This document shows, piece after piece, positions 35,798-40,015 of a stretch of DNA of 64,000 bases; within the stretch, counting starts at the first letter, position 1, and every line of letters starts with the position of its first letter. A program made the translations under genes and the position numbers. This DNA is from Cyanobacteria bacterium FACHB-502 (GTDB lineage Bacteria; Cyanobacteriota; Cyanobacteriia; Elainellales; Elainellaceae), in NCBI GenBank assembly GCA_014695325.1, contig JACJNZ010000092.1, forward strand, positions 62,001 to 126,000, in the 5' to 3' direction. A model generated the notes under the pieces. That model was not told the origin of the DNA. It was given only the letters and a program-made list of their open reading frames with translations, and ran no database searches.

Positions 35798-36580
35798 ATG
35801 GGCAAGCGCACCGAACGCAACCTGCTAGACATCCTGGTTCAACAGAATTACCTGTTCAAGAATCTGGATAAGAAATGGCTGGCAGCACACCTTCCGGTCG
35901 AGACTCTGGTTGCCGAAAAGATCTATTCCAATCGATTGGTTTACACCGCGTTCCGTCCCGATTCCTACATTGAGGTGCTGTACCTGATTCTGGAAGGCGG
36001 ACCTGTGATTATTCGTAGTGCCCCACTCGATCGCATTATTGCCCTCAGCTATCCGGGCGGCTGTTTTGGGATGCGCAGTTTACCTGTTGGTTATGGCAGT
36101 GCAGGCTATGCGTTTCCCAGCCAAGTTGAAGCATACAAAACGACAAGCGTGATCAAAATTCCGCTCACCGTTTTACAACAGATTTACGAAACAAATGAAA
36201 CCTTCCGCAGTCGCTACGATAAGCTGTTCGAGTTGCGCGAAAAGTTTCAATATCACCTGCTCAATTGCAGCACCTACCCACCTCAAGCTGTAGCATCACT
36301 GCTGCGAGCACTCGTGTATCAGGAACGATCGCTGGGCAATCAACCAAACGGAGAAGGCATTTATACCTTTGATTTACCGATCGACATTATTGCCCGTGCT
36401 TGTCAGTTAAATCATCGCACCGTCGAGCAAGTGATTAAAGGAATGCACAAAGTCGGACTGGTTGAACCCACAAAAGATAGCGATACCTCAAATGATATTT
36501 TGCGCGTGATTGATGCAGAAGGTTTAAAGGAAACCTACAGCGCAACCAGAGATAAAGTATCGTGGTGGCCCCTCAAGTAG
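35798..36580 (+). CDS. Crp/Fnr-like transcription regulator
   Basis: A 260-residue protein. The N-terminal beta-roll is divergent (LYLILEGGPVIIRSAPLDRI, SYPGGCFGMRSLPVGYGSAG), with a long middle helix (TFRSRYDKLFELREKFQYHL) as in Crp proteins, and a C-terminal winged helix including LPIDIIARACQLNHRTVEQV. It lacks the cAMP-binding Arg-Ser pair. It is divergent from the FAD protein and upstream of the ssu region, so it may be the local regulator for sulfur acquisition; this is inference from position. ATG at 35798. Confidence 0.7.
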   Translation: MGKRTERNLLDILVQQNYLFKNLDKKWLAAHLPVETLVAEKIYSNRLVYTAFRPDSYIEVLYLILEGGPVIIRSAPLDRIIALSYPGGCFGMRSLPVGYGSAGYAFPSQVEAYKTTSVIKIPLTVLQQIYETNETFRSRYDKLFELREKFQYHLLNCSTYPPQAVASLLRALVYQERSLGNQPNGEGIYTFDLPIDIIARACQLNHRTVEQVIKGMHKVGLVEPTKDSDTSNDILRVIDAEGLKETYSATRDKVSWWPLK

Positions 36581-37239: not shown

Positions 37240-37600
37240 TCACACTTCCATTTTAAAAGTTTTGGTAAAAACTACCATTACTAAAAACAAACTTTACTGC
37301 AAAAAGTTAAGAAATGTGAAGCAAATTTAGCCTGTGGAAAACTTGCGTCTTTCCTGTGGAAAACTTGTTGAAAAGTAGTGGAAAAGCTATTCTTTAAAGG
37401 GGATAGCGAAAGTGAGTATAATTACCTATGTGATAAAAGCAGCAGTTTTCCCACAGGTTTTCCACAGGAACGATCACTTGAACCTCAACTCATCTAAGCA
37501 TTTCGCAACTTTTTCCCTATTTTCCACAGGCTCTATTACTGCTAGATCTCTTTAAAACTATTTAAGAATAATCAGATCAAACGATCGAGCGATCGAGCAA
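37240..37600. other. Putative chromosomal replication origin, oriC
   Basis: Four perfect copies of the cyanobacterial DnaA-box TTTTCCACA lie within 200 bases: 37333-37341 and 37355-37363 on the minus strand (TGTGGAAAA), 37458-37466 and 37520-37528 on the plus strand. Two one-mismatch copies lie at 37377-37385 and 37447-37455. Just left, 37252-37330 is very AT-rich (repeated AAAACT/TTTT runs) and could be the unwinding element. The cluster is 280 bases upstream of dnaN, the usual oriC position in many cyanobacteria, and the two pairs of boxes point towards each other. Confidence 0.82.
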
Positions 37601-37808: not shown

Positions 37809-38942
37809 ATGAAACTCATCTGCACCCAAAGCGAACTGAATACGCATCTCTCCCTGGTCGGTCGCGCGGTTCCTTCCCGTCCGAGTCATCCGGTTTTGGC
37901 AAATGTCCTGTTGACCGCGAATGACGAAACCCAGCAGGTCAGTCTAACAGGCTTTGATCTGAGCCTGGGCGTTCAAACCAGTTTTGCAGCACAGGTTCAG
38001 GAGGCAGGAACGCTAACGCTTCCGGCAAAGCTACTGTCAGACATCGTTTCTCGGCTGCCCGAAGGCGAAATTACCCTGTCTGACGAGGGCAATGAAGCTT
38101 TGGTGACGCTCACCTGTTCATCGGGACGCTATCAGGTGCGGGGTATGGGGGCAGAAGATTATCCAGAACTGCCTGCGATCGAGGATGGAAACATTGCCCA
38201 GCTTCCTGTTGAGGCACTGATTGAAGGGCTGCGCGGTTCGCTCTTTGCGACCAGTTCTGACGAGTCGAAGCAGGTGCTCACGGGCGTTCACATTACCGCA
38301 GAAGCCGACGGATTAGAATTTGCCGCCACTGATGGACATCGCCTCTCCGTGGTGCAGACCGTGAGTGAGGATAATCAAAACGAGGCGGAGTTTGGCGTCA
38401 CCGTGCCCGGCAAGGCACTGCGGGAGCTGGAGCGGATGCTGCAAACTAATGGAACTGGAACAGCGATTACGGTACGGTTTGACCAGGGACAGCTTATCTT
38501 CGTCTGGGAAGGCAATCAACGCCTCACCAGTCGCCTGCTCGAAGGGCAGTATCCCAACTATCGCCAGCTTATTCCTCGCCAGTTTTCCCGCCAGATGACA
38601 CTCGATCGCCGCCAGGTCATTAGCGCGCTGGAACGAATTGCAGTCCTGGCAGACCAGAAAAATAGCATTGTCAAACTCAGCCTCAACAGCGTTGTGCAGG
38701 AGCTTGTCCTCTCGGTAGACGCGCAGGATGTAGGTAGTGGGCGGGAGGCGATCGCCGCTCAAATTTCTGGTGACGATCTAGAGATTGCCTTTAACGTGAA
38801 ATACCTGCTGGAAGGGCTGAAGGCATTGAATACCACAGAGATACAGATGCAGTTTAATACGGCAACTAGCCCCTCCATTCTGACCCCAGTGGGCGGCGTG
38901 AAGATGACCTACCTGGTGATGCCTGTTCAGGTTCGTAGTTGA
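37809..38942 (+). CDS. dnaN: DNA polymerase III beta subunit (sliding clamp)
   Basis: A 377-residue sliding clamp of normal length. MKLICTQSELNTHLSLVGRA starts domain 1; LPAKLLSDIVSRLPEGEITL, GADEYPELP-type GMGAEDYPELPAIEDGN, TGVHITAEADGLEFAATDGH RLS and the C-terminal MTYLVMPVQVRS are hallmark DnaN stretches (the last supports the protein-binding pocket VMPVR/MPMRL). It forms a dimeric ring that tethers polymerase III to DNA. It transcribes away from the putative origin at 37.3-37.5 kb. ATG at 37809. Confidence 0.97.
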   Translation: MKLICTQSELNTHLSLVGRAVPSRPSHPVLANVLLTANDETQQVSLTGFDLSLGVQTSFAAQVQEAGTLTLPAKLLSDIVSRLPEGEITLSDEGNEALVTLTCSSGRYQVRGMGAEDYPELPAIEDGNIAQLPVEALIEGLRGSLFATSSDESKQVLTGVHITAEADGLEFAATDGHRLSVVQTVSEDNQNEAEFGVTVPGKALRELERMLQTNGTGTAITVRFDQGQLIFVWEGNQRLTSRLLEGQYPNYRQLIPRQFSRQMTLDRRQVISALERIAVLADQKNSIVKLSLNSVVQELVLSVDAQDVGSGREAIAAQISGDDLEIAFNVKYLLEGLKALNTTEIQMQFNTATSPSILTPVGGVKMTYLVMPVQVRS

Positions 38943-39089
38943 AGTCTGACTGTATTTTTTGCTTCAAAGATATTTTTGTTTCAAGGATACTTTCGCCAAG
39001 CTGAAAAATTTGATTTTGAGCGATCGTTCTGAAGAAGAACCTTGCAAAAGCGATCGCTCAACCCACAAGAAGAGCCTGAATTAGAAAAA

Positions 39090-39290
39090 GGGGTAGGGCA
39101 ACACAGCTATCTGCTAGAGATTCATGATTTTCTTGCTATCTCTTTATGGCAACTTTGACCAATTTCAGGAGATGCCTATTAGGCTGATAGCAGGGTGAGT
39201 GACTACCCTACCCAAGACCGGGGCAGGCAGTTATGGGGGCTCATGGACTGCTTGCTTCCCCTTGGGTACTCGTCAAGAGTCGCAGAGCGA
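39090..39290 (+). ncRNA. Strongly structured region, candidate small RNA
   Basis: Between dnaN and the GAF gene there is no protein frame but strong pairing. GGGTAGGG (39091-39098) matches CCCTACCC (39206-39213) perfectly; inside it GCTATC (39106-39111) matches GATAGC (39186-39191). Then CCCAAG (39211-39216) pairs with CTTGGG (39261-39266) around GGG-GCAGT/ACTGC-CCC arms, and ACTC-GTCAA-GAGT follows. The nested stem of about 120 bases plus a 56-base hairpin is the shape of a structured RNA (6S-like in size). Strand is not determined by the pairing; plus is assumed. I do not recognise a known family. Confidence 0.4.
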
Positions 39291-39397
39291 TTTGAACGAG
39301 TGATATAAACTACCACAGCAAAAACCGATTCAATTTCGGTCATCTTCAAACATCGGCGCTAAGGTTTTGCAGTGAGAAAAGTATGCTGTGTTCCAGG

Positions 39398-40015
39398 CTA
39401 ATCCTCAAGCAGAGCTGTTTTGCGGCGATCGATATTCACGATCACAGAAGACGTTGATAGCGTTTTTGCACCCTGCTGCATAGTCTGCACGTCGATTTCT
39501 CGCCAGTCTTTCGGACTCTGGCAGTGATGAGCAACCAGTAATCCCCACAGACGCACCTGCTGATTTGATTCATCTTGCAGCGGAACCAGAATCGGCACGA
39601 CGAGATTCGCTCGTACCTGCATTCCTTTCAGGAAACTCCGATGGCACTCGGCGATCGGTTCAGTGTCAATATCAGATATGGCTCGAACTCTGCCTTTTAG
39701 ATATTGCTCTGCATATTCGCCGTTAAAGCACTCGTCGGGTCCGGTTTCGCCGTAGATGGAATATTTTGTGTCGCTTAGAGCTTCAAAGGTGACGCGCCCT
39801 TCCCATTCTCGATAGAAGTAATAAAGGGCAACGCGATCGACTTGAAGCTGTTCGCGCAATTCGTTGGCTGTTTTTTGGACTAAATCATCGCGCTCAAGAT
39901 TGTGCGACAGCCGTCGAATCAGCTTTTGCAAGCCCTGATCAAAGGAAGTCTCAGACGCAGACGATGAGCGATCGAAACGATTTTGCACAGACTTAATGAT
40001 GGAAAACAGTAACAA
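39398..40015 (-). CDS. Stand-alone DXCF-type cyanobacteriochrome GAF protein
   Basis: A 205-residue protein made of little more than one GAF domain. It has the two cysteine motifs of a DXCF cyanobacteriochrome: GPDECFNGEY (Asp94-x-Cys96-Phe97) and AECHRSFLKGMQVRANLVVP (Cys124-His125), the bilin-attachment Cys-His, then WGLLVAHHCQSPKDW, as in CBCR GAF domains. Such proteins bind phycocyanobilin/phycoviolobilin and switch between blue/teal and green-type states (known). No kinase, GGDEF, HAMP or methyl-accepting domain is attached, so output must come from a partner. The start may be the TTG at 40015 or GTG nearby; N-terminus is uncertain. An unknown gene lies just upstream on the same strand. 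Confidence 0.8.
   Translation of the reverse strand: MLLFSIIKSVQNRFDRSSSASETSFDQGLQKLIRRLSHNLERDDLVQKTANELREQLQVDRVALYYFYREWEGRVTFEALSDTKYSIYGETGPDECFNGEYAEQYLKGRVRAISDIDTEPIAECHRSFLKGMQVRANLVVPILVPLQDESNQQVRLWGLLVAHHCQSPKDWREIDVQTMQQGAKTLSTSSVIVNIDRRKTALLED

Follow-up and report, generated by a model that had tools for sequence, protein, structure and literature searches.

A covariant hairpin with a GGGGGCU loop downstream of dnaN: candidate core of a new small RNA gene in two families of cyanobacteria

The window, that is, the whole stretch of 64,000 nucleotides of cyanobacterial DNA analysed here, contains dnaN (37809–38942, plus strand; Pfam DNA_pol3_beta domains) and, converging on it from the far side of a short spacer, a GAF-domain gene (39398–40015, minus strand). 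The spacer (38943–39397) has no open reading frame of 60 or more amino acids, in agreement with a preliminary description that called it protein-free. That description had noted a long stem pairing GGGTAGGG at 39091 with CCCTACCC at 39206, an inner stem pairing GCTATC at 39106 with GATAGC at 39186, and a hairpin closed by CCCAAG at 39211 and CTTGGG at 39261, with CCC 39211–39213 common to the long stem and the hairpin. It proposed a structured RNA, either 6S-like or linked to the replication origin. All these elements are present in the DNA and the observation is confirmed; the question is which of the pairings belong to a conserved RNA, and whether that RNA has a gene of its own. Among the stems first described, only the 3' hairpin (39211–39266) is part of a conserved RNA. 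With a probability of about 0.7, in our estimate, the locus is a stand-alone gene of a new family of trans-acting small RNAs (sRNA), roughly 75 nt long, driven by an OmpR/PhoB-type regulator and using its GGGGGCU loop as a seed.

The 191-nt stretch that we folded is more stable than its shuffled counterparts on the plus strand (-71.6 against -58.2 kcal/mol, sd 4.0, z -3.3), with a weaker excess on the minus strand (z -2.25). Long-range pairing contributes little that is conserved. When the stretch was dinucleotide-shuffled 1000 times, 20% of the products contained a perfect inverted repeat of 8 bp, so the long stem (39091–39098 with 39206–39213) is unremarkable on its own; GGGTAGGG/CCCTACCC has no perfect 8-bp counterpart in 12 other members from f1, the window's family, and in a same-genus genome we could make out, by eye, a 9-nt equivalent that carries one mismatch. 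Across 20 homologs, the inner stem (39106–39111 with 39186–39191) is paired in 52.8% of cells compared to 41.4% in shuffles, and a possible third stem in 51.6% compared to 46.8%. A nested fold (P2/P3) had seemed compensatory with three genomes and was built into our first search model; it was dropped because 20 homologs gave pairing of only 53% and 52%. A conserved promoter block follows the 5' arms of the long stems, which therefore fall outside the inferred transcript, and the inner stem spans that promoter. We judge both stems to be products of chance, and found no evidence that the long stem and the hairpin act as alternative folds. The locus illustrates how a chance inverted repeat, here near dnaN, can adjoin a genuine hairpin.

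Homologs were gathered with successive models. A DNA search of 98 genomes identified G001 (88%), from the same genus, and G006 (83%) as clear relatives, besides many short chance-level matches; short-pattern matching yielded 24 stretches, 10 of them cyanobacterial and 14 from unrelated phyla, which were taken as chance. Model R1, built from three sequences with a fold like that first proposed, matched 24 of 291 genomes at E ≤ 0.1, and reading these loci revealed an upstream half that aligns on a TAnnnT box with unvarying spacing and a downstream half that varies in sequence while keeping two hairpins. Model R2 (promoter plus hairpin P5, 13 sequences) matched 42 of the 388 genomes of the class at E ≤ 0.05, one of them (G050) twice at a single palindromic place. 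The covariance search with R3 (39 sequences) matched 52 of 388 at E ≤ 0.01, one match apiece: 22 in f1, 28 in f16 (apparently Leptolyngbyaceae) and one each in f4 and f24. Two of these, in G002 (f1) and G220 (f24), are without the loop motif and look false on reading; G002 also has a different, weak R2 match, and the weak R3 match in G220 (locus L184, about 1013–1150) lies just upstream of an apparent response-regulator start and seems only repeat-like promoter DNA. The other 50 look true, and counts of loop, promoter, tail and terminator below refer to these 50 members. The element is single-copy in the window's own genome. In other families gshB, which neighbours the element in f16 (see below), served as an anchor; the gene was present in 29 of 30 genomes, and R2 reached at best 10.8 bits (E 1.7) across 30 loci around it. 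Judged from these matches, the RNA would be common to many filamentous cyanobacteria of f1 and f16, with one further genome.

Hairpin P5 (39211–39266, plus strand) is the conserved structural core. In a model-fitted alignment of 45 rows (A7), which is biased toward the helix by construction and includes three opposite-strand palindromic rows (L105+, L096-, L092-), 99.1% of 450 cells are paired, 82 cells are changed on both sides, and 8 of the 10 pairs show both-sided change; none of 500 shuffles equalled this percentage, and slid controls were 30–50% paired. An alignment of 20 homologs made with MAFFT, and not fitted to a model, gave 99.0% of 200 cells paired, with both-sided change at 5 of 10 pairs. 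RNAalifold, applied to 39 homologs, recovered P5 as the sole consensus helix, with 12 bp, 10 of which show both-sided change. (Our 39-row alignment, A8, excludes the three palindromic rows.) Since the shape is kept while its letters change, we consider the hairpin real, and, with 41 G-U cells but just 4 unpaired ones when the plus strand is read, we take that strand to be the RNA strand. Compensatory change in relatives, the check first suggested for the whole fold, therefore favours the CCCAAG/CTTGGG hairpin strongly and lends no support to the long and inner stems.

A second hairpin, P4 (39192–39209, AGGGT..ACCCT), lies near the inferred 5' end of the RNA and persists as its sequence changes. 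Its stability is modest, with a mean z of -1.35 and p ≤ 0.05 in 12 of the 42 A7 rows scored (three of the 45 were too short; L105+ was included). Together, P4 and P5 make up the fold of the 75-nt RNA 39192–39266, at -37.0 kcal/mol compared to -27.9 for shuffles (z -2.75). The apical loop of P5 carries GGGGGCT (39235–39241), a candidate seed or binding site, which a script found exactly in 49 of 50 members and which is visible in the fiftieth (L146); this conservation is partly a matter of selection, as the models that found the members contain the motif. Several members, mostly of f16, have a second GGGGGCT or GGGGCT directly after P5 (L074, L075, L079, L100, L110, L112 and L116). By eye, the homologs share no conserved start codon or reading frame.

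The upstream half reads as promoter DNA rather than RNA, so that the structured-RNA proposal stands for 39192–39266 and fails for the sequence before it. A block of four direct repeats with a period of about 11 bp (ATTCATGATTTTCTTGCTATCTCTTTATGGCAACTTTGACCA, 39120–39161, plus strand) is defined by a profile of 42 columns and 33 bits, built from 34 of the 39 A8 rows after five with weak or cut promoters had been dropped. Its self-similarity peaks at lag 11, with a mean correlation of 0.44; no other lag between 5 and 15 exceeds 0.22. At a fixed distance follows a -10 type box, TAGGCT in the window (39180–39185, plus strand) and TAnnnT in relatives. In 39 members the block reaches 10 bits or more, and all of these have the box 18 or 19 nt downstream of it; the block scores less in the remaining 11 (G008, G013, G021, G024, G029, G033, G062, G133, G159, G171 and G321). 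Both this spacing and the repeat period suit a response regulator of the OmpR/PhoB type.

We propose that such a regulator would bind the four repeats and help RNA polymerase to use the TAGGCT box, giving a transcript that starts near 39192 (about 39191–39193), extends for about 75 nt or longer, and folds into the short hairpin P4 followed by the long hairpin P5, which would present the nearly invariant GGGGGCU loop. Most likely the RNA acts in trans, its loop pairing with mRNAs that bear AGCCCC near their start codons; alternatively, the partner of the loop may be a protein. A more specific version can be offered as a tentative suggestion, with the odds somewhat against it: an undescribed regulatory RNA of two families, controlled by a PhoB-type regulator through the four-repeat array, in which the stem is interchangeable and the GGGGGCU loop serves one conserved partner, be it a set of mRNAs or a protein. 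Being single-copy and retained in two families, and combining a constant loop with a variable stem and a predicted multi-repeat promoter of its own, such an RNA makes a clear candidate for a regulator, and it sits in filamentous cyanobacteria that are largely unstudied; the well-studied cyanobacterial sRNAs come, to our knowledge, from a few model strains, all outside the f1 and f16 lineages.

The nature of the repeats raises the possibility that the sRNA is controlled by phosphate, the repeats being Pho boxes bound by SphR/PhoB; this would be a narrower form of the explanation just given and not an alternative to it. Pho box promoters likewise consist of tandem direct repeats with an 11-bp period and a pyrimidine-T-T start. 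A scoring profile built from the boxes printed in those parts of PMC1906773 that we drew on peaks on the sRNA promoters at period 11 only, where four units score 3.2 compared to -10.3 in shuffles (sd 6.1). Measured against the consensus CTTAACCT (three or more 8-bp boxes in tandem, separated by 3-bp linkers), the period is present and the match is weak. Three units score 4.2 on the sRNA promoters, less than the 11.1 of regions upstream of PstS-like genes, a comparison between unequal lengths (about 60 and 480 nt). Conversely, the 42-nt sRNA promoter profile fails to find PstS-like promoters, being not clearly above background upstream of 30 PstS-like genes or of 19 psaA genes. The layout differs too, since the sRNA promoter has four weaker units placed 18–19 nt from the -10 box, whereas the E. 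coli boxes described in the same parts of PMC1906773 lie about 10 bp from theirs. Phosphate control is a specific idea that we regard as unlikely, if still worth keeping in mind.

A stand-alone gene should be free of its neighbours, and here the window proved atypical. At the G001 and G006 loci the element is not adjacent to dnaN; it lies 3' of, and on the same strand as, a gene for a DUF697/dynamin-type GTPase; the G001 copy additionally faces a GAF gene, as in the window. The most economical explanation is a rearrangement in the window genome that brought the element next to dnaN, making this neighbourhood a local one. The GTPase gene is directly upstream on the same strand in 10 of 24 genomes, and gshB is convergent with the element at 16 of the 20 f16 loci examined; as the models never used these neighbours, they support the orthology of the copies. 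Elsewhere the upstream gene differs, being dnaN in the window and other open reading frames in G012, G025 and others (in these two, presumably alanyl-tRNA synthetase). At sequence level, then, the element has a predicted promoter of its own and no fixed neighbouring gene, as one would ask of the gene for a trans-acting bacterial sRNA, the further hallmarks of which are a transcript of 50–300 nt and base-paired targets.

The same arrangement bears on the view that the element is not independently transcribed, P5 being a DNA or 3'-UTR element, a shared hairpin for the termination or processing of transcripts from the upstream gene. The recurrent position directly behind the GTPase gene would suit such a role, as would the length and stability of P5 and the T-rich 3' flanks (T5 runs near the hairpin) of 10 of the 50 members. 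Against it, upstream genes vary between genomes, a promoter block at fixed spacing intervenes between the upstream gene and the hairpin, and a terminator would not be expected to have an invariant loop; we hold this view to be improbable. As for a Rho-independent terminator downstream of P5, terminator-like sites occur within 250 nt in only 1 of 50 members, and this candidate was rejected. As most members lack a U-tract at P5, the predicted 3' end of the sRNA is uncertain.

Downstream of P5, a minority of members have an optional conserved tail, yACnTCAnC-N14-ATTTCGG (39310–39339 in the window, plus strand). Of the 50 members, 16 have ATTTCGG downstream, at most 215 nt away, and none has it upstream; the internal spacing of the tail is near-constant (for example at L107, L110, L112, L116, L102, L104 and L105). 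In many members the tail could be translated as a C-terminal stretch of 11 residues ending in NFG; by eye, L112 and L185 have in-frame stops, for which reason a coding role was set aside. Read on the minus strand, the end of the window's tail folds into a terminator-like hairpin that would suit the GAF gene.

If the locus is a stand-alone sRNA gene, the question becomes whether its family is already known. An Rfam scan, suggested at the outset, assigned nothing: at gathering thresholds, cmscan assigned no Rfam 15 family to the window, and relaxing the cutoff to E ≤ 10 brought up four matches in the spacer, all at chance level (E 5.3 to 6.8) and none to a bacterial sRNA. Twenty homolog loci gave no match at gathering thresholds and five gave none at E up to 0.5. 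The Yfr2 family, also of small cyanobacterial RNAs, is characterized by a fixed loop motif; the loop of the new RNA is GGGGGCU, and it has no Rfam match. Searches of open-licence PMC papers brought up none recognisable as a description of the RNA, and none on GGGGGCU in cyanobacteria.

PsrR1 (SyR1), a trans-acting sRNA associated with light stress, is one of the nearest known systems, being likewise an intergenic sRNA gene behind repeats of the OmpR-family type; the parts of PMC6091082 and PMC13421787 used here describe it as a 131-nt cyanobacterial RNA in the regulon of RpaB, an OmpR-family regulator. Its region was located by transferring the S. elongatus PCC 7942 coordinates given in the relevant part of PMC6091082 to genome G065, which we take to be PCC 6301. 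The putative PsrR1 region differs from ours in having an HLR1-like site, GTTACAAA-AG-TTTACAGA, and a clear T8 terminator, and unfiltered R3 found no match in it (best 2.4 bits). HLR1 repeats follow KTTACAWW-N2-KTTACAWW with period 10, according to the parts of PMC13421787 and PMC9241938 consulted; two such units at period 10 score -2.87 on the sRNA promoters, below the -1.58 of shuffles, and an RpaB/HLR1 promoter was rejected. That the element is a diverged PsrR1, an RNA characterized by induction in high light and by PSI and phycobilisome mRNAs as targets, is very improbable.

Least credible of all is the nested fold as a 6S-like or origin-linked RNA: its stems exist in the window and resemble 6S RNA (RF00013) in size, but they are not conserved, the genome's own 6S RNA is on contig C52 (85.6 bits) with no RF00013 match in the spacer at gathering thresholds or at E up to 10, the spacer contains no DnaA-type box (0 in 38943–39397, against four TTTTCCACA at 37333–37528), and the G001 and G006 copies lie away from dnaN. 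Those four TTTTCCACA boxes form two pairs in opposed orientation a short way 5' of dnaN and mark a candidate replication origin. Further upstream, at 35798–36580, the window encodes a protein of 260 amino acids with no Pfam hit, which we presume from its reading to be a regulator of the CRP/FNR type.
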